The position numbers and the translations under genes are program-made. Below are positions 34,947 to 44,796 of a DNA stretch of 64,000 bases, in pieces (position 1 is the first letter of the stretch; the number at the start of each line of letters is the position of its first letter). The notes under the pieces were generated by a model. It had not been told where the DNA came from and searched no databases. It saw nothing but the letters and a program-made list of their open reading frames with translations. Source of the stretch: Gluconobacter thailandicus F149-1 = NBRC 100600 (GTDB taxonomy: Bacteria; Pseudomonadota; Alphaproteobacteria; Acetobacterales; Acetobacteraceae); the NCBI RefSeq assembly GCF_000964465.1, contig NZ_BANH01000011.1:1-64000 (forward strand), read 5' to 3'.

Positions 34947-35999
34947 CTATCCTTTTCGGGTCAAAGCCTTCCGCGCTTCCTTGTCTGCAAGACCATGCAG
35001 CCGCAGGTGATGGCGGAACTGATAGTAGGTCAGCCCCAGAAGCTCCGCAGCCTGTCGTTGACTGAACTGCGCCTCACGCAGGGCAGCCTCCAGAAGGGTG
35101 CGTTCATGGCTTTTGACCGTTTCAGAAAAGTCCAGCGGGAACGTCCGGGGAATGTCCGTAGTCGCATTGGACGTAGTGATTGGCGGCGTAGTCACGCGCG
35201 CGTTCCAGTCCGGCGTCACAAATGGATCAAGGACAATCTCGTCCAGCCGACGCTCCGGCTGTTCCATCCGGTAGACACTACGCTCCACCACATTTCGCAG
35301 CTCTCGCACATTGCCCGGCCAGTCATGATCCATGAGGCATTGCAGCGCTTTCTGGGAAAAGCCGGAAAAAAGTTTGCGCCCCAGCTCGGCACTCATCTTC
35401 GTAGCGAAATGCTCAGCCAGAAGAGGAATATCCTCTTCGCGCGCTCTCAGCGGCGGAACATTGACCACATCAAAGGCCAGACGGTCCAGAAGGTCCGGTC
35501 GGAAAGTGCCTTCCTGCGCCATAGCAGGCAGATCCGCATTAGTCGCACCAATCAGGCGTACATCCACCCGGATTGTCTCACTGCCACCAACGCGTTCAAA
35601 ACTGCCATACTCAATAACGCGAAGCAGTTTTTCCTGCACAGCCAGCGAAGCGGTGCCGATTTCGTCCAGAAACAGCGTACCGCCGTCCGCACGCTCGAAA
35701 CGAGACAGACGCCGCTTCTGCGCACCGGTAAACGCGCCAGCCTCATGTCCGAACAGTTCGCTGTCCAACAGGGCTTCCGGCAACGCTGCACAGTTCAGCT
35801 TCACCAGTGGTGCATCCCAGCGATCCGACAGGAGAGCAAGGCGGGCAGCCACCAGTTCCTTGCCCGTCCCGCGCTCCCCGATCACCAGAACAGGACGCTT
35901 CAGCGGCGCAAGACGGGAGATCTGATCCAGCATCGCCAGAAATGCCGGAGCCCGCCCGATGGGTGTCGGAACTTCGTCCGCTTGGGTGGATCTCGCCAT
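34947..35999 (-). CDS. pspF: Sigma-54-dependent activator of the phage shock operon
   Basis: AAA+ enhancer-binding protein of 350 residues without an N-terminal receiver domain, as expected for PspF. Walker A GERGTGKE (41-48), the sigma-54 contact loop GAFTGA (88-93, intact) and Walker B GGTLFLDE (106-113) are all present. A Fis-type helix-turn-helix lies at the C-terminus (FSQRQAAELLGLTYYQFRHHLRLHGL). It is divergent from pspA, the E. coli arrangement, where PspA inhibits PspF by direct contact. I could not find a convincing -24/-12 sigma-54 promoter in the 112-bp gap. Confidence 0.93.
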   Translation of the reverse strand: MARSTQADEVPTPIGRAPAFLAMLDQISRLAPLKRPVLVIGERGTGKELVAARLALLSDRWDAPLVKLNCAALPEALLDSELFGHEAGAFTGAQKRRLSRFERADGGTLFLDEIGTASLAVQEKLLRVIEYGSFERVGGSETIRVDVRLIGATNADLPAMAQEGTFRPDLLDRLAFDVVNVPPLRAREEDIPLLAEHFATKMSAELGRKLFSGFSQKALQCLMDHDWPGNVRELRNVVERSVYRMEQPERRLDEIVLDPFVTPDWNARVTTPPITTSNATTDIPRTFPLDFSETVKSHERTLLEAALREAQFSQRQAAELLGLTYYQFRHHLRLHGLADKEARKALTRKG

Positions 36000-36111
36000 T
36001 TCCGAGCCTCGTTCGCCACTTCAGATTGTCACAACCATAACATCCCCAAAACGAGCCCGCTGACAAGACAGGTCATTGTGCTCTAATCCAGTTCTCAGGA
36101 AGGAAAGCGTC

Positions 36112-36795
36112 ATGGGTATTTTTTCTCGGCTCGCCGATATCGTGAACTCCAATCTCAATGCGATTCTCGCCACGGCCGAGGACCCGCAGAAAATGATCCG
36201 TCTCGTAATCCAGGAGATGGAAGACACACTTGTTGAGGTCCGCAGTCAGGCCGTCCGCACCATTGCGGAGCGCAAGCAGCTCGAACGCCGTGTGCGGACC
36301 ATGATGCACGAGGAAGACGAATGGCACCGCAAAGCCACCCTCGCCATTGAGCGTGACCGAGACGATCTCGCCAAGGCGGCCCTTGCCGCCCGTCATACGG
36401 TTGAGCAGTCCCGCGAAGGGCTGGAGCGTCAGATCGCGCAGGTGACGGAAGGGCTGGAACACCAGAACGACGATATCGCCAAACTTCAGGCCAAGCTGGC
36501 GGATGCAAAATCCCGCGAGAAGACCCTGACCATGCGTGCCCGCACAGCGGAAGGTCGCCTCAAGACGCGTGAAAAGCTTTATGATACCCGCATTGACGAC
36601 ACGCTGGGTCGTTTCGAGCAGGTGGAGCGGGCGTTGGATGAACTTGAAGGCAAGGCGGAAGCCTATGATCTGGGTCGCAGATCCGGTCGTCCTTCCCTGC
36701 ATGATGAATTGGCTGCGCTGGAAACGGATGCGGCGGTAGAAGATGAATTTGAAGCGTTAAAGCGCCGGATTGCCGAAAAGAAGCGTGACGCCTGA
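36112..36795 (+). CDS. pspA: Phage shock protein A
   Basis: ESCRT-III-like membrane-remodelling protein of 227 residues, largely alpha-helical coiled coil. The N-terminal amphipathic region MGIFSRLADIVNSNLNAILATAEDPQKMIRLVIQEMEDTLVEVR is the PspA/IM30 signature. I start at ATG 36112, preceded by AAGGAAAG. PspA binds stressed inner membrane and in other bacteria restrains PspF. It is the first gene of an operon that continues with a PspB-like protein and two exported beta-rich proteins. Confidence 0.95.
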   Translation: MGIFSRLADIVNSNLNAILATAEDPQKMIRLVIQEMEDTLVEVRSQAVRTIAERKQLERRVRTMMHEEDEWHRKATLAIERDRDDLAKAALAARHTVEQSREGLERQIAQVTEGLEHQNDDIAKLQAKLADAKSREKTLTMRARTAEGRLKTREKLYDTRIDDTLGRFEQVERALDELEGKAEAYDLGRRSGRPSLHDELAALETDAAVEDEFEALKRRIAEKKRDA

Positions 36796-36820
36796 TGAGA
36801 GCAGGAAGAAAGTCTGACTT

Positions 36821-37072
36821 ATGAATGAGGACTTTGTTGGCCTTGTCGCCGTCGTCCTGACCCTGGGGTTCATCCCGGCGCTTGTCCTAGGGCCGCGCCT
36901 GCTTCGTGCGCGTGCAGGTGGCGCTATGAATCAGGGGATACCAGACCCACATCTTCAGGCTGCCCTGACACAGGCCGAAGCCCATGCTACGCGTCTGGAA
37001 GAAAGGATCGACCAGCTCGAACGCATCCTCGACGAGGATATCCCGGGCTGGAGAGCTAGGAGTTCACGATGA
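36821..37072 (+). CDS. pspB: PspB-like envelope stress membrane protein
   Basis: Small protein of 83 residues with one N-terminal membrane helix (FVGLVAVVLTLGFIPALVL) and a cytoplasmic coiled coil (ALTQAEAHATRLEERIDQLERIL). It ends DEDIPGWRARSSR; the acidic-PGWR ending is characteristic of PspB. The ribosome binding site is GGAAGAAAG. Its stop overlaps the ATG of the next gene by 4 bp, which couples their translation. In the known system PspB works with PspC to relieve PspA inhibition. Confidence 0.85.
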   Translation: MNEDFVGLVAVVLTLGFIPALVLGPRLLRARAGGAMNQGIPDPHLQAALTQAEAHATRLEERIDQLERILDEDIPGWRARSSR

Positions 37073-38301
37073 CGTCCCGCACCGCCCTGCGCATACTGCT
37101 GCTGGCCACGCTGGCAGGGACAGCTTCTGTCCATCCGGCCGAGGCTGCGCGCGTCTCCATGTCCGGCGAAGATCTGGATCTGGCGATTCCGTGCACAGGT
37201 CAGGTGCGGATCGTCGTGGACACCACCATGAAAGACGGCGCCACGCTCGACAGCAGCAGCGCCACTCAGGTCACCATGCGAACGGGCAAGGAAGACGGGG
37301 ACAGCCGCATTTCCATTGCTACCAAAAGCTGTGCGCCCAGTGGCAAGCTGACCATCAGCGTCTCGCCCTATACCGGCGTCTCAATCCACGACAGCCATGA
37401 CACAAACTTCGTGATCAAGGGAAAGCTTGCCTCGCTGGATGCCAGTCTCGACTCCACTTCAATGGACATCGAGAACACCCAGTCGCTGGACCTGAGCATG
37501 CATGGGGCCTCGAACGTCCATATCGGATCGCTTGAGAGAGCCGCCCAGATCGTTGCATCCGGGACATCAACCTTCACAGCCGACTCCGCGAAGCTGACGG
37601 CCCTTTCAGCGCAGTTGACCAATCAAGCCTCGTTCACGATCTCCCAGGGCGACATCGAGGCCCTGACGATCGTCACGGCCGATAACGCATCTGCAACGGT
37701 TCTGGGCAATGCCTCCGTTGCCACCGTCACAGCCAATGGCACAGGCGCGGTCAATATCGAGCGCGTGTCCGGCCCCATCGTCCGGTCTGGCAATGGTTCT
37801 GTCCGTGTGGGAGCCCAAAACGGTGTGGTCTATCGCCCGACCGAAGCCTCCCCCACGCCACCAACACCCCCTACAGTTCAGCCTCAGGCTCCGGTTGCCC
37901 CTCCAGCCGTACCAACAAATTCTCCAACAGCACCCGAGACATCGCCTCCACCACCCGTTCTGGCTCCCGCCCCTCAGCCCAGTTCACAAGCTGCGCCACA
38001 GGAGATGCCAGCTCCCTCAAAAGAACCTGCAGCGCCCCCTTCTCAGCCTATCCCGCAAGCTACCCCGCCTGCGTCAACCATTTCACCTGAGGTTCAGGCC
38101 CCCATTCCTGAAACAGCGGCGCCCGCGACAAAACTTCCTGCTACAAACCAGCAGGAACCTTCCGCACCTCAGCCGGTATCGCCCCCCACGACCACCGGGT
38201 CTAACGCTCCCGAAACACCCCATACTGATCCGGCACCATCCACCCCGGCCCCAGCGGCTTCAAAACCAGCCTCGGATGAGGCTGGCAAGCAGGGAGGCTG
38301 A
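37069..38301 (+). CDS. Exported GIN/toastrack-like protein with Pro-rich tail
   Basis: Protein of 410 residues. It consists of a signal peptide (ending AEAA), a beta-rich repeat domain at about 28-255 of the GIN/DUF2807 ('toastrack') kind with short Ser/Thr/Asp strands, and a very Pro/Ala/Thr-rich tail (about 258-410) without a membrane anchor or sorting motif. Two cysteines (C42, C88) near the domain start may form a disulfide. The next gene encodes a paralogue with an equivalent pair. Translational coupling to pspB and a 2-bp gap to the next gene place it in the psp operon. Toastrack-type domains are known partners of PspC-like proteins. The role of the tail is unknown; spanning the cell wall is one possibility. 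Confidence 0.7.
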   Translation: MTSRTALRILLLATLAGTASVHPAEAARVSMSGEDLDLAIPCTGQVRIVVDTTMKDGATLDSSSATQVTMRTGKEDGDSRISIATKSCAPSGKLTISVSPYTGVSIHDSHDTNFVIKGKLASLDASLDSTSMDIENTQSLDLSMHGASNVHIGSLERAAQIVASGTSTFTADSAKLTALSAQLTNQASFTISQGDIEALTIVTADNASATVLGNASVATVTANGTGAVNIERVSGPIVRSGNGSVRVGAQNGVVYRPTEASPTPPTPPTVQPQAPVAPPAVPTNSPTAPETSPPPPVLAPAPQPSSQAAPQEMPAPSKEPAAPPSQPIPQATPPASTISPEVQAPIPETAAPATKLPATNQQEPSAPQPVSPPTTTGSNAPETPHTDPAPSTPAPAASKPASDEAGKQGG

Positions 38302-38303
38302 CC

Positions 38304-39707
38304 ATGGCCAGACACAGGTCCCTGCGGAACCTTGGGCAAGGGTGTGCGGCTTTTGTCCTGAGCGCGGTGTTCACGACTTCGGCTCTGGCACAGACGCCTC
38401 CCCTCCCACCTGAACCACCGCCCCCTCCCAGCCCGCCTGCATCCACCGGCGTGAATACACCGCCTGGGCGGTTTCTGGATCTGGCGCCCAGTTGTCTCAC
38501 AGACCTGCATATCCGCGCGGGCGTTACGCCCTCCGTCCTGAGCGGAAACGCTGTTCTCACCATTGACGGTCACGACAAGCTGGAACTCAGCCTCAAGGAT
38601 CATTCCTGCGATACGGATGGGAGCGCGGAAATTGAAGTTCCGATGGGAACGAATATTGGTTTCCGGGGCAATGAAACCCACGTTATTGCCACGGGTATCC
38701 TAGGACGCATGAGCGGGTTTACCGCGAATGGCGACGTTGGAATCGAACAGGCCTCCGACATTTCGCTCCGGATGACGGGCAATGGAAATGTTTCGATCGA
38801 CAGAGTGTTCGGCAATGTCAAAGTTCAGAATTTTTCCAACGGTGACCTTTCTATTGGCACAGCCCAATCTCCTGACGTTGAGCTTGTGGCCACGTCCAGC
38901 GGTGATCTGACCATAAAAGGCGGCTGGATCGACACGCTCTCCATCCGTGACATGGGATCTTCCGACATTACAGCCCATGTCTGGGCGAAGGCTGCACATC
39001 TTGCAGTTTATGGAAGTGGAAACGTGACGGTTGATCGTGTCACAAAGACACTCTCGCAAACACATTTTGGTAGCGGTGCATTGAATGTCGAGGCTACCGG
39101 CGGGGCTCATGTCGAGACGACGAACAAGGTTGATGGAGACGCGATTGCCAGGGATGTTCTGGCCAGTCTTGGAAGTCATCTGTCCGCTACAGAGGCCAGT
39201 CACCTCGGAAACGTTCCAATACTCCTGAACACCCATTCGTCGCATCATCACAGCCTCATACGGCTGATCATCACACTGGTGATCATCGGGCTCATACTAC
39301 GTCGGGCCCGTCGCTACCGTGAGCGAACTGGCCAATCGTTTTTCGCAAATCTCTGGACGGATGCTTCAGAGGGATACGCCTCATTTGTCCGCAACTGGGA
39401 AGCGCGGATGCGGGAACGTCGTGGTGAAGGGGCGCATACAACCGTTGAACCACCCCATATCCATTATACCCGCCGTGCCGTCGATCTTTATGAAGAAGTC
39501 GTGCACACCGCTCGCGAACAGAAGCAGCGTCATGCCAGCCGGGTGCACCCTTCCGCTCCGGATGCCGTATCCCTCAGCCCGGCACTGATCCGCCTGAACG
39601 AACGGCTCGCCCGTCTTGAACCAAGGCTTGCGCGGATGGAACAGTTCGTCACGTCTCCGGATTTCGCTCTGGAACGGCAATTCCGGGACCTGGAACGCTC
39701 CGCTTGA
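38304..39707 (+). CDS. Toastrack-type protein with membrane anchor and PspC-like C-terminus
   Basis: Protein of 467 residues. A signal peptide and a Pro-rich stretch (30-47) come first, then a periplasmic beta-repeat domain (about 58-275) homologous to the preceding protein, with cysteines C64 and C102. One membrane helix follows (about 318-333, after HHHSLIR). The cytoplasmic tail ends in a coiled coil LSPALIRLNERLARLEPRLARMEQFVTSPDF... RQFRDLE (425-463). That final segment closely resembles the C-terminus of PspC (RMExYVTS..F.L...FRDL). GGAGG precedes the ATG. It probably takes the place of PspC, linking a periplasmic sensor to PspA/PspB. No canonical PspC is present here. Confidence 0.72.
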   Translation: MARHRSLRNLGQGCAAFVLSAVFTTSALAQTPPLPPEPPPPPSPPASTGVNTPPGRFLDLAPSCLTDLHIRAGVTPSVLSGNAVLTIDGHDKLELSLKDHSCDTDGSAEIEVPMGTNIGFRGNETHVIATGILGRMSGFTANGDVGIEQASDISLRMTGNGNVSIDRVFGNVKVQNFSNGDLSIGTAQSPDVELVATSSGDLTIKGGWIDTLSIRDMGSSDITAHVWAKAAHLAVYGSGNVTVDRVTKTLSQTHFGSGALNVEATGGAHVETTNKVDGDAIARDVLASLGSHLSATEASHLGNVPILLNTHSSHHHSLIRLIITLVIIGLILRRARRYRERTGQSFFANLWTDASEGYASFVRNWEARMRERRGEGAHTTVEPPHIHYTRRAVDLYEEVVHTAREQKQRHASRVHPSAPDAVSLSPALIRLNERLARLEPRLARMEQFVTSPDFALERQFRDLERSA

Positions 39708-39755
39708 GCAAGACAGACTTTGACGTAACCGAGCGGTCAGGGTAGGGGCAGAAGG

Positions 39756-40541
39756 GTGAATGCCGTTCTTGATCCCATAGCGGCCCTTGGCCGTGCCGTC
39801 CTCGGCCTCGTCCGTCAGTCGGGCGCTCTCGCCATGTTTGCGCTGGAGGCGCTGTCGCATCTGGTGCGACCGCCGTTCTACTGGCGCATCTTCCTGTCCA
39901 CGCTGATCGAAACGGGATTTTTCTCCCTGCCGGTCGTCGCGCTGACGGCCCTGTTCTCGGGAGCGGTCATCGCCCTTCAGTCCTATGTCGGGTTCGGGCA
40001 GTACCATGTGCAAAGCGCGATTGCCGGAATTGTGGTGCTGGCTGTCACCCGTGAACTCGGTCCTGTTCTGGCCGGCCTGATGGTCGCCGGGCGTGTTGGC
40101 GCGGCAATGTCCGCCCAGATCGGCACCATGCGCGTCACGGATCAGATCGACGCGCTCACGACACTTTCGACCAACCCAATGAAATATCTGGTGACGCCCC
40201 GCCTGCTCGCCGGAACAATCGCCCTGCCCTGCCTTGTCGTCGTGGCGGACGTGCTGGGTGTTCTGGGTGGCTTCACCGTTTCGGTGGCAAAGCTGGGCTT
40301 CTCACCCTCCACGTACATCACGGCCACGCTGGAGTCCCTGAAGACCATCGACGTCGTCGTTGGCCTGGTCAAAGCCGCTGTCTTCGGTTTCCTGATCGCG
40401 CTGCTGGGCTGCTATCATGGCTATAACAGCCGTGGCGGCGCAGAAGGCGTTGGCTCTGCGACAACCGCCGCTGTGGTGGGAGCATCCATCCTGCTTCTGC
40501 TGTTCGATTACCTCCTGACAGATCTGTTCTTCTCTCAATGA
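39756..40541 (+). CDS. mlaE: MlaE-type lipid ABC transporter permease
   Basis: Inner-membrane permease of 261 residues of the MlaE/YrbE family, which moves phospholipids (or related lipids) between inner and outer membrane. The family block ELGPVLAGLMVAGRVGAAMSAQIGTMRVTDQIDAL is clear, as is LFSGAVIALQSYVGF. The start is GTG 39756 with TAGGGG about 8 nt upstream. It follows the psp genes by 48 bp on the same strand and overlaps mlaF by 4 bp (ATGA). Confidence 0.92.
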   Translation: MNAVLDPIAALGRAVLGLVRQSGALAMFALEALSHLVRPPFYWRIFLSTLIETGFFSLPVVALTALFSGAVIALQSYVGFGQYHVQSAIAGIVVLAVTRELGPVLAGLMVAGRVGAAMSAQIGTMRVTDQIDALTTLSTNPMKYLVTPRLLAGTIALPCLVVVADVLGVLGGFTVSVAKLGFSPSTYITATLESLKTIDVVVGLVKAAVFGFLIALLGCYHGYNSRGGAEGVGSATTAAVVGASILLLLFDYLLTDLFFSQ

Positions 40542-41326
40542 GCACACCAAAAATCCGCATCCGCGGCCTCTCCAAGGCCTTCGGCTCCAAGGTCGTGCTC
40601 GATGGAATTGATCTCGACGTCGAAACCGGCACATCCATGGTCATCATCGGAGGTTCCGGATCAGGAAAATCCGTTCTTCTACGGTGTATTCTTGGCCTGA
40701 TCGAACCTGATACTGGCACGATCGAGATCGACGGCGAGAATATCCTCACAGCGTCCCGCAGCCGTCAGGAAGCCATTCGCCGACAGATCGGCATGCTGTT
40801 CCAGAATGCTGCCCTGTTCGACAGCATGAGCGTTGCAGACAACATCGCCTTCGGTCTGCGTGCCAAGCACTCAGATCGTGATGGCCCCGTCCCGTCCCGT
40901 GCCAAGGCACGTGAACTGGCAGGCGGCATTCTCGAGCAGGTGGGACTGGATCCGTCTGTTGGACAACTCAGCCCGTCCGAGCTTTCAGGCGGGATGCAGA
41001 AGCGCGTCGGGTTGGCACGCGCCATCGCCGGACAGCCCAATATTCTGTTCTTTGACGAACCAACAACCGGGCTGGATCCGATCATGGGGGCTGTCATCGA
41101 TGGCCTGATCGTGGATTGTGTCCAGAAACTCGGTTCAACCGCCATCGCCATTACGCATGACATGGCCTCTGCCCAGCGCATCGGTAACCGGGCAGCGATG
41201 CTCTATCATGGCAAACTGGTCTGGCAGGGACTGGCCGCGGACCTGATGCACTCTGGCAATGCCATGGTGGACCAGTTCACCCATGGGCGCCGGGAAGGGC
41301 CGATCACCATGGAACTGCGGAAGTGA
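40538..41326 (+). CDS. mlaF: MlaF-type lipid ABC transporter ATPase
   Basis: Cytoplasmic ATPase of 262 residues. Walker A is GGSGSGKS, the signature is LSGGMQKRVGLARA, and Walker B is ILFFDEPTTGLDP followed by the H-loop in AITHDM. The Met-Gln-Lys-Arg after the signature Gly is typical of MlaF. It energises the MlaE permease encoded upstream. Its stop overlaps the GTG of a small membrane protein where mlaD normally follows. Confidence 0.93.
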   Translation: MSTPKIRIRGLSKAFGSKVVLDGIDLDVETGTSMVIIGGSGSGKSVLLRCILGLIEPDTGTIEIDGENILTASRSRQEAIRRQIGMLFQNAALFDSMSVADNIAFGLRAKHSDRDGPVPSRAKARELAGGILEQVGLDPSVGQLSPSELSGGMQKRVGLARAIAGQPNILFFDEPTTGLDPIMGAVIDGLIVDCVQKLGSTAIAITHDMASAQRIGNRAAMLYHGKLVWQGLAADLMHSGNAMVDQFTHGRREGPITMELRK

Positions 41327-41526
41327 ACGAGTTCCGCCGTCCACCCATCTCCCGCACAGTGTGGCAGCGTCTTGGTCTGACCTATGTCATTGCACTGCCG
41401 ATGCTACTCATCCTGTTCATGCATCCGCCCAAGACCCAGAACCTGCTCATCCAGGCGCTCATACTGCTCCTGATCGTTACGGCTGCCCGAATCATGGCAA
41501 GGCTCATCATCCGCTCCGACGATTGA
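41323..41526 (+). CDS. 67-residue membrane protein coupled to mlaF
   Basis: Small protein with two hydrophobic segments (VIALPMLLILFM and LLIQALILLLIVTAA) and a basic N-terminus (NEFRRPPISRTVWQR). The GTG at 41323 overlaps the mlaF stop (GTGA), so it is translated by coupling. I do not recognise the family. The usual MlaD (single anchor plus MCE domain) is absent at this position, and this protein has no MCE domain. Confidence 0.65.
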   Translation: MNEFRRPPISRTVWQRLGLTYVIALPMLLILFMHPPKTQNLLIQALILLLIVTAARIMARLIIRSDD

Positions 41527-43170: not shown

Positions 43171-44796
43171 ATGTCGATATCTTCTGATATACTGATCAGT
43201 ACATCTGTTTTGACCGTATCTTCAGGTGGACAGATCCAGAGTCTGTCAGGAGATCCTAACCCCACTGAAATTCCAGCCGGAACGACCGTTTCTGGAGGTT
43301 ATGCCTCCGGAATCACACAGACTGTCGCTGGTTCTGCTGTGGGTTTTACAGTAAAAGGCCAGGACCAGCCCTATAATTTCAATAACATGTATTACCCTGG
43401 ACTGCAGATTGTGCAGTCTGGCGGAGTGGTCATTGATACAAATGTTATTGCCGAAACCTATCGAGTAGGTGGTGCTTTCAATTCCAGTGCAGCATCCGGT
43501 ACCCAGATTGTCCTTAATGGGGGTTCAGCCCTGAATACAACGCTTCAGGGAGAAGAATATATTGTTACTGCTGGAATGCGAAATCCCTATATACTCAGCA
43601 TCAATTCGGCCGTTCAGCATATTTCTTCTGGTGGATATGCAAGTGGTATTAACGTCCAGACGGCGGGCGTTTCCATCGTGTCCGCGGGCGGCTACGCCAC
43701 AGGTACCACAATCAGCGGGGTCACAAAAAATCTGGCCCTTTATAATATCAATACCAATCCGATGGACGTAGCTTATCCCGTTCAAATCAGCGGCGAGCAG
43801 ATTGTCTATGGCACGTCTGAGGATGTTACCCTCCTGTCAGATGGGCTGCTTGATGTCACTGGAATCGCCCGCCACGTCACTGTCTCCAGCGGAGGCGAGT
43901 TGATCGGGGAAAATGATGCCACGCTTTCAGACATAACCGTCAGAGGGGGAGGCATTATTATGCTCGGGTCCTCAACAACATTCACGGACCCGATAACTGT
44001 ACAGAGCAGTGCGGTATTTATTTTCAACGACATTGATAACTCTAGCAACCTCGTCAGCGCGGCTGTCGTTTCAACGAGCGGCACATCCGGAACACTGGAA
44101 GTCATCTCCGCAGGAACTGTAGTTCAAGACCTTGCTATTCAGGGAGATTTCTCCTCCCCGCTCTATTTTACAAAAGCGGCATCCGGAAATCGCTTCGAGA
44201 TGGGTTTTGGAACCCCCTGCTACTGCCCGGGAACGCTGATTGCGACCGAGACTGAAGAACTTCCCATCGAAGAATTGAAAATCGGCACACCTGTTCGCAC
44301 AGCTTCTGGTCAATTACGTCCAATTTCTTGGATTGGCCGCCGATCCTATGATCCCATCTTTGCTTATGGAAACCGGGATGTCCTGCCAATCCTGATTCGC
44401 AAAGGGGCTCTTGGAAACAACCTCCCACGTCGGGATCTTACCGTGTCCCCCCTCCATGCCATGTTTCTGGATGGGTATCTCATTCCAGCACTTCATCTGG
44501 TCAACGATCTAACCATTATCCAGATCGAAAAACCCAACGAAATCAACTACATTCACCTTGAGCTGGAAACCCATGACATTCTTCTGGCCGAGGGCGCACC
44601 CTCCGAAAGTTTTCTGGATGACAGTTCGCGCGGGATGTTTCACAACGCTCACGAATATAACGAACTCTATCCGGATGCTCCCGTTATGCCCCCGCAGTAT
44701 TGCGCCCCGCGTCTGGAAGATGGGGCAGAGTTGGCCCGTATTCATCAACGCCTGAAGAACTACGCCCAGCAAGTTCTCTCTGAGAAGGCCGCCTGA
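43171..44796 (+). CDS. AIDA-repeat protein with C-terminal Hint domain
   Basis: Protein of 541 residues. Residues 1 to about 340 are AIDA-like beta-helix repeats with recurring SSGG and AGGYA elements (VSSGGQIQSL, ISSGGYASGINV, VSAGGYATGTTI, VSSGGELIGE). From about 350 a Hint_2 (hedgehog/intein-type) domain begins: CYCPGTLIATETEELPIEEL, VRTASGQLRPISWIGRRSY, LTVSPLHAMFLDGYLIPA, ETHDILLAEG. Hint domains can cleave at their first Cys. There is no Sec signal peptide and no autotransporter barrel, so export is by another route. Base use is more AT-rich than in the neighbours, suggesting transfer. A glycosyltransferase gene follows at 23 bp. Confidence 0.78.
   Translation: MSISSDILISTSVLTVSSGGQIQSLSGDPNPTEIPAGTTVSGGYASGITQTVAGSAVGFTVKGQDQPYNFNNMYYPGLQIVQSGGVVIDTNVIAETYRVGGAFNSSAASGTQIVLNGGSALNTTLQGEEYIVTAGMRNPYILSINSAVQHISSGGYASGINVQTAGVSIVSAGGYATGTTISGVTKNLALYNINTNPMDVAYPVQISGEQIVYGTSEDVTLLSDGLLDVTGIARHVTVSSGGELIGENDATLSDITVRGGGIIMLGSSTTFTDPITVQSSAVFIFNDIDNSSNLVSAAVVSTSGTSGTLEVISAGTVVQDLAIQGDFSSPLYFTKAASGNRFEMGFGTPCYCPGTLIATETEELPIEELKIGTPVRTASGQLRPISWIGRRSYDPIFAYGNRDVLPILIRKGALGNNLPRRDLTVSPLHAMFLDGYLIPALHLVNDLTIIQIEKPNEINYIHLELETHDILLAEGAPSESFLDDSSRGMFHNAHEYNELYPDAPVMPPQYCAPRLEDGAELARIHQRLKNYAQQVLSEKAA

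Follow-up and report, generated by a model that had tools for sequence, protein, structure and literature searches.

A phage shock operon with a PspC-like toastrack protein beside X1 and mlaEF in Gluconobacter and its relatives

How a phage shock protein (psp) operon could be connected to envelope damage when the genome holds no match to the PspC domain, and why such an operon should run on into genes for lipid transport, are questions raised by a locus of Gluconobacter thailandicus F149-1 (contig NZ_BANH01000011.1, positions 1 to 64,000; this stretch of 64,000 nucleotides is called the window). Here pspA and pspB are followed on one strand by two genes for predicted exported proteins, which we call X1 and X2, then by mlaE, mlaF and a gene for a 67-residue membrane protein, with pspF divergent from them. 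A first-pass annotation made from the letters had viewed the series as a single envelope-stress unit that couples a periplasmic sensor to PspA and to lipid transport. We found instead that the locus is composed of two separable parts and is no obligate unit, because X2 and PspB follow PspA while X1 stays beside mlaE. To our knowledge, how PspBC senses damage is still open, and an apparent exchange in nature of everything but the PspC tail suggests a division between output (the tail) and input (the sensing end).

X2 and its PspC-like tail

The PspC domain PF04024 had no match in X2 or anywhere else in the G. thailandicus genome, which ruled out a canonical pspC elsewhere; such a gene, with a psp operon of its own and the present order not conserved, would have counted against the first-pass annotation. 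Matches were likewise missing from 13 further genomes in or near the X1 clade (14/14 without a match, G. thailandicus included) and were present in 8/8 outgroup psp genomes, 7 of them above the cut-off. What X2 does carry is a C-terminal stretch, residues 425-463, that aligns with the final 39 positions of TIGR02978, a model of PspC (E 1e-6). This model detected the tail in 5/6 further X2 proteins scanned (the second copy of locus L022 gave none), and six of the ten residues that are invariant in an alignment of 20 X2-type proteins lie within it (R441, E446, T450, S451, F454 and L456). Conversely, a profile of the X2 tail also matched the C terminus of PspC proteins from other Acetobacteraceae, where it lies behind the PF04024 domain; in one protein of locus L032 both PF04024 and the tail were matched.

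The part of X2 in front of the tail is of another kind. It begins with a signal-like stretch and matches DUF2807 at 25.0 bits (cut-off 24.2). In the AlphaFold model (mean pLDDT 75, pTM 0.52) residues 57-273 form a confident beta-solenoid and residues 316-342 a helix whose hydrophobic run could span the membrane, and the C terminus is helical. Toastrack structures of the 4QRK/4OPW type appeared at ranks 8 to 13 of the structure search (E 5e-3 to 8e-3, probability 0.85-1.00), in which no PDB match had an E value at or below 1e-3. Given that no PF04024 match exists in this genome, X2 resembles a PspC whose sensor end has been swapped, and we propose it as the PspC replacement. In Yersinia the C-terminal tail of PspC is the part that binds PspA, and the tail of X2 may do the same. 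In E. coli, as far as the excerpts of PMC3068692 go, only the C-terminal one of three PspC fragments (residues 40-119, including the membrane part) met PspA. X2 has the architecture expected of a periplasmic sensor wired to PspA. Proteins of this kind are not widespread in the class: of 385 genomes sampled, only that of G. thailandicus has a match spanning both parts, and tail-only and toastrack-only matches do occur in others (in the genome-wide profile counts, for 397 family and 385 class genomes, at most four candidates were scored per genome).

PspB of the window scores just below its NCBIfam cut-off (49.9 versus 51.7) and does not group with canonical PspB. In a midpoint-rooted tree of these short proteins, 8 canonical PspB split from 10 PspB of the X1 clade and 3 of an orphan pspB-X2 module with support of 96/99. 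Three genomes (G080, G049 and G043) carry pspA-pspB together with a PspC domain at one locus and a separate unit of pspB and an X2-type gene on another contig; the module loci are L038, L039 and L040, of which the L039 copy is broken by an assembly gap. A search ahead of pspA in the genomes of these three loci gave no canonical -24/-12 site. The simplest history would be that such an orphan unit displaced the pspB-pspC pair beside pspA.

Retention of X1 beside mlaE without pspA

X1 matches DUF2807 only marginally by sequence (E 0.53). Its AlphaFold model, however, is a confident beta-solenoid (residues 28-247), for which the PDB search ranked two toastrack structures, 4OPW and 4QRK, highest (E 1.3e-5). 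It has no PspC tail, no second membrane helix was seen, and in the window a Pro-rich arm of ~150 residues follows. The first-pass annotation was thus right that the two exported proteins share the toastrack fold; it had treated them as paralogues of one kind and missed the PspC tail of X2.

An X1 profile matched 65 of 397 family genomes at E <= 1e-6, of which the 50 with clear orthologues at E <= 1e-30 were used. Among the 15 weaker ones left out, G362 (an X1-like gene on a contig other than that of mlaE) was placed in the tree as X1-less, G126 has X1 fragments upstream of mlaE with several genes there broken, and the 13 others were excluded. In the G126 locus (L212), X1, mlaF and radA are fragmented, which is how decay or a poor assembly would look. 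All 50 X1 genomes have mlaE, and X1 lies upstream of it on the same strand in 48, contig ends intervening in G307 and G323. A pspA above the cut-off was found in 23 of the 50; the 27 counted as pspA-less include G201 and G158, whose PF04012 matches of 24.0 and 22.7 bits (cut-off 33.9) fall in 535-codon frames. Of the first 120 genomes, drawn evenly, 18 carried an X1 of this grade, together with pspA in 7 cases.

Presence of pspA divided the remaining genes. The X2 tail and PspB were found at the locus in 23/23 genomes with pspA versus 1/27 without, and RpoN was found in 23/23 (in G. thailandicus PF04552 scores 186 bits, G000:C168:21276-21740) and in 0/27. For these counts pspA and RpoN were searched in whole genomes, X2 and PspB of the 27 in the locus stretches; a whole-genome search for X2 in 120 genomes, covering 11 of the 27, found the tail in G022 alone. 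X1 lies upstream of mlaE in all 27 pspA-less genomes and directly adjoins it in 26, with a gap of 25-108 bp in 22 of these (full range -158 to 274). G022 is the exception: it keeps pspB-X1-X2 with no match to pspA or rpoN (L028:4900-6201), and the end of its PspC tail is altered, the usual last residues being missing. Contig breaks aside, none of the 50 genomes showed X1 at a place other than beside mlaE.

X1 is also maintained where pspA is gone. Its dN/dS was 0.040-0.141 in seven pspA-less pairs and 0.033-0.074 in four pairs with pspA, several of these values being accompanied by dS > 1. The pspA-less X1 genomes include Neokomagataea (L045, L046) and 20 genomes of ~1.9-2.4 Mb that cluster together as a single group in the tree. 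On this tree, built from genes of the same locus by a quick search with hand-picked outgroups, presence of X1 takes one change, pspA six over the whole tree and X1 without pspA four, two of them forced by well-supported branches. Because X1 is retained in the pspA-less genomes, and under purifying selection in the seven pairs compared, it has a job without Psp. The notion of a single unit is therefore not supported in its first form, and that of a periplasmic sensor is supported for the architecture of X2 and not for both exported proteins, X1 persisting without pspA.

Where pspA is present, the order pspF|pspA-pspB-X1-X2-mlaE lies on one contig in 21/23 X1 genomes and is cut by contig ends in the other two, and is for this reason more than chance; it is conserved across several genera, which supports the first-pass annotation on this point. 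X2-tail genes are in two copies in 9 of these 21 loci. In G307 and G327, both with pspA, the reading frame of X1 or X2 is disrupted or truncated.

Layout, regulation and weighing of explanations

All eight genes of the window are open frames at the coordinates first assigned (Table 1), and recomputed gaps agreed exactly with the earlier ones: 25 bp between pspA and pspB, -4 between pspB and X1, 2 between X1 and X2, 48 between X2 and mlaE, -4 between mlaE and mlaF and -4 between mlaF and the 67-residue gene. The pspA gene is the sole PF04012 match of the genome. The last gene was seen only in the genus group of the window (by name Gluconobacter and Neokomagataea, absent from L134 of that group) and was not found in loci of other genera. 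Between pspA and mlaE no terminator-like site was seen on the + strand, scans for sigma-70 promoters and for terminators did not rise above shuffled sequence, and two short pairs of inverted repeats occur around the pspF-pspA gap. Farther along, downstream of radA, an open frame of 541 aa (43171-44796) has by eye a repeat-rich start and a Hint-like end.

Table 1. Features of the psp-X1-X2-mlaEF locus in window coordinates
Feature	Position	Strand	Basis or remark
pspF	34947..35999	-	TIGR02974 508 bits, cut-off 444; GAFTGA motif; sigma-54 activator, divergent
CTGACAAG box upstream of pspA (putative element)	36060..36067	+	conserved CT(GA/TG)CAAG
pspA	36112..36795	+	TIGR02977 283 bits, cut-off 243
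pspB, type of orphan pspB-X2 module	36821..37072	+	PF06667 33.6 bits, cut-off 25.6; PspB tree
X1, predicted exported protein, toastrack fold, long Pro-rich arm at the C terminus	37069..38301	+	signal-like N terminus by eye
X1 toastrack solenoid, residues 28-247	37150..37809	+	AlphaFold model m4f5d6246bd20
X2, predicted exported toastrack, one predicted membrane helix and PspC tail	38304..39707	+	DUF2807; TIGR02978 tail; model m05a99c2dd8b9
X2 toastrack solenoid, residues 57-273	38472..39122	+	AlphaFold model; PDB matches 3LYC, 3PET, 4QRK, 4OPW
X2 predicted membrane helix, residues 316-342	39249..39329	+	AlphaFold model; hydrophobic run by eye
X2 PspC C-terminal tail, residues 425-463	39576..39692	+	TIGR02978 positions 83-121 of 121, E 1e-6
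mlaE, permease, GTG start	39756..40541	+	PF02405 251 bits, cut-off 22.5; TIGR00056 above cut-off
mlaF, ATPase	40538..41326	+	ABC_tran 117 bits; best NCBIfam match PRK11831 MlaF
67-residue membrane protein	41323..41526	+	found only in loci of own genus group

Two PF00158 proteins are encoded by G. thailandicus, namely PspF, with a GAFTGA motif, and a response-regulator-type protein without it, which may resemble NtrX. Two PF00158 proteins were also the rule among the pspA-containing X1 genomes searched (19/22, with three in the other 3/22), and 13/13 pspA-less genomes had one; in G054, the only other genome in which GAFTGA was checked, this single protein lacks the motif. In this Gluconobacter, sigma-54 may have no client other than PspF. 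RpoN itself was found in two (G042 and G060) of seven other genomes searched, and the motif RRTVAKYR, presumably the RpoN box, was intact in 8/8 RpoN proteins examined. Upstream of pspA, a canonical -24/-12 site was present in 6/9 distinct outgroup genomes. In the X1 clade, where no such site was seen, a CT(GA/TG)CAAG box (CTGACAAG in the window) lies within 150 bp of pspA in 22/23 loci, at -52..-54 or -72/-73; mononucleotide shuffles, uncorrected for relatedness, would yield 0.08 loci.

As for the lipid-transport genes, MlaE of the window has its nearest named relatives in Gluconobacter japonicus and G. frateurii (99% identity), and MlaF scores 179 with PRK11831, far below the cut-off of 441. 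None of the eight proteins had a Pfam match to MlaD, MlaB or MlaC, so that MlaD is not encoded in the operon. The genome has seven PF02470 (MlaD) matches, all away from the contig of the operon (on C128, C190, C177 and C164 and none on C181). Two are single-domain matches (G000:C128:18313-18546 and G000:C190:15598-15825) with no mlaE or mlaF in the surrounding 13.0 and 12.5 kb; MlaEF of the window could have its partner in one or the other.

The explanation to which we lean is that a Psp operon with a rebuilt sensor has been joined to an older lipid-transport operon, X1 most likely serving MlaEF. We infer the signalling steps, the places of the domains and a contact of X1 with MlaEF. PspA, PspB and PspF, judging by their families, would act as in enterobacteria. 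The toastrack domain of X2 would sense envelope damage in the periplasm, the signal would pass through its one membrane helix, and the PspC tail, placed in the cytoplasm and gated by PspB, would remove PspA from PspF, whereupon sigma-54 transcription would raise the whole operon including MlaEF. X1, the second exported toastrack protein, with its Pro-rich arm, does not need PspA and would most likely serve MlaEF from the periplasmic side. In species that keep Psp, the PspA-based repair of membranes would thereby rise together with MlaEF-driven transport of lipids, so that Psp would be coupled to lipid transport; in species that lose it X1-MlaEF would continue alone. A bolder version, which we hold only tentatively, makes X1 an undescribed periplasmic regulator or adaptor of MlaEF, active whether or not Psp is present, around which the Psp operon was built; repair by PspA and lipid transport by MlaEF would thereby have come under a single sigma-54 switch with PspF as its only client in these bacteria.

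Several observations weigh against the explanation we prefer. A simple consensus picked out no canonical -24/-12 site ahead of pspA in the 23 X1-clade loci (best scores <=16 of 21), so that sigma-54 control of this promoter can only be presumed. With TIGR02978, X2 scores 28.6, far below the whole-family cut-off of 104, although the PspC of L032, which has PF04024, also stays below it at 68.6. The E. coli study, in the same excerpts (PMC3068692), weighs two topologies and allows that the C-terminal part of PspC may be periplasmic. G022 holds pspB-X1-X2 without pspA. Finally, radA lies downstream of mlaF in 47/47 stretches long enough to show it, and we know of no functional link between radA and MlaEF; as radA is equally faithful, conserved adjacency proves little about X1 and MlaEF.

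This last point is an argument for the view that psp landed by chance upstream of mlaEF-radA, that X1 was kept for a reason unrelated to lipids and that the order reflects inertia. Likewise, it is common in this family for mlaEF to stand with neither psp nor X1, for example in Acetobacter, where radA was either inverted upstream or missing from view; the same holds for mlaEF-radA in Komagataeibacter, Gluconacetobacter, Commensalibacter and Pseudoroseomonas. Among 80 named loci, 8 had the full psp order, 1 was cut by a contig end, 2 had X1 alone and 69, some of them short upstream of mlaE, had none of these genes. A family-wide psp-mlaEF linkage was rejected: of 120 genomes 26 had a PF04012 match, and in only 7 of the 26 did pspA lie within 6 kb of the best mlaE match, all 7 having X1 (contig breaks could hide some). 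We nevertheless regard two mere neighbourhoods as rather doubtful, given the close packing in the window (-4, 2 and 48 bp between genes), the short X1-mlaE distances in most pspA-less genomes, the lack of a terminator-like site from pspA to mlaE and the absence of X1 from other places in the 50 genomes. Tight spacing and this absence elsewhere favour MlaEF, on balance, as the partner of X1. That X1 is instead a co-receptor in the same Psp complex, with X2 as main sensor and MlaEF as a passenger, seems improbable: X1 does share the fold of X2 and lies between pspB and X2 in the 21 one-contig loci with pspA, but 27 genomes that lack pspA have it, all but one of them with no X2 or PspB at the locus either, and in the seven pspA-less pairs compared purifying selection acts on X1. 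On the preferred explanation, loss of psp around the surviving X1-mlaEF is a natural experiment on toastrack function and a lead to a lipid-transport partner for toastrack proteins.

Comparison with known systems

A related variant has been noted before. One sentence of Ravi et al. 2024 (PMC11237479) states that PspC is replaced by toastrack proteins in some Alphaproteobacteria, and the variant indicated there (ANQ40502.1) is very probably of the same operon type as ours. The passages concerned do not mention the PspC tail, the link to mlaEF, the survival of X1 without PspA or the RpoN pattern, and "mla" does not occur in the main text (supplements lay outside the search). The same authors, in these passages, hold toastrack to be intracellular. 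The main text of a Popp-type survey of Psp phyletic distribution (PMC9239133) has no occurrence of "acetobacter" or "DUF2807". We found no literature joining Mla and phage shock in acetic acid bacteria, none joining DUF2807 and MlaE, and none on PspF as the only sigma-54 enhancer-binding protein in Acetobacteraceae or Gluconobacter, in searches mostly outside subscription journals.

The Lia/LiaG systems and PspC-toastrack fusions of Firmicutes and Actinobacteria, as described in parts of PMC11237479, resemble our locus in that toastrack is tied to PspC parts and membrane-stress genes; in those, however, a membrane domain of PspC or LiaI-LiaF tends to come before toastrack, whereas in X2 it precedes the helix and only the PspC tail is present. 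Closer at hand, the orphan pspB-X2 module shares the PspB type and the X2 architecture, but occupies a contig other than that of pspA; the same genomes encode PspA, PspB and a PspC domain as well. Compared with the Mla system (MlaFEDBC), MlaE and MlaF are shared and MlaD, MlaB and MlaC are unmatched among the eight proteins. Like the canonical pspF | pspABC of E. coli and Yersinia, the Gluconobacter locus has PspF, encoded divergently, PspA, PspB and a PspC tail at the end of X2; unlike it, it has no PspC domain match and no canonical -24/-12 site upstream of pspA in the X1 clade, a predicted exported toastrack would form the sensor end, and X1 and mlaEF are added.

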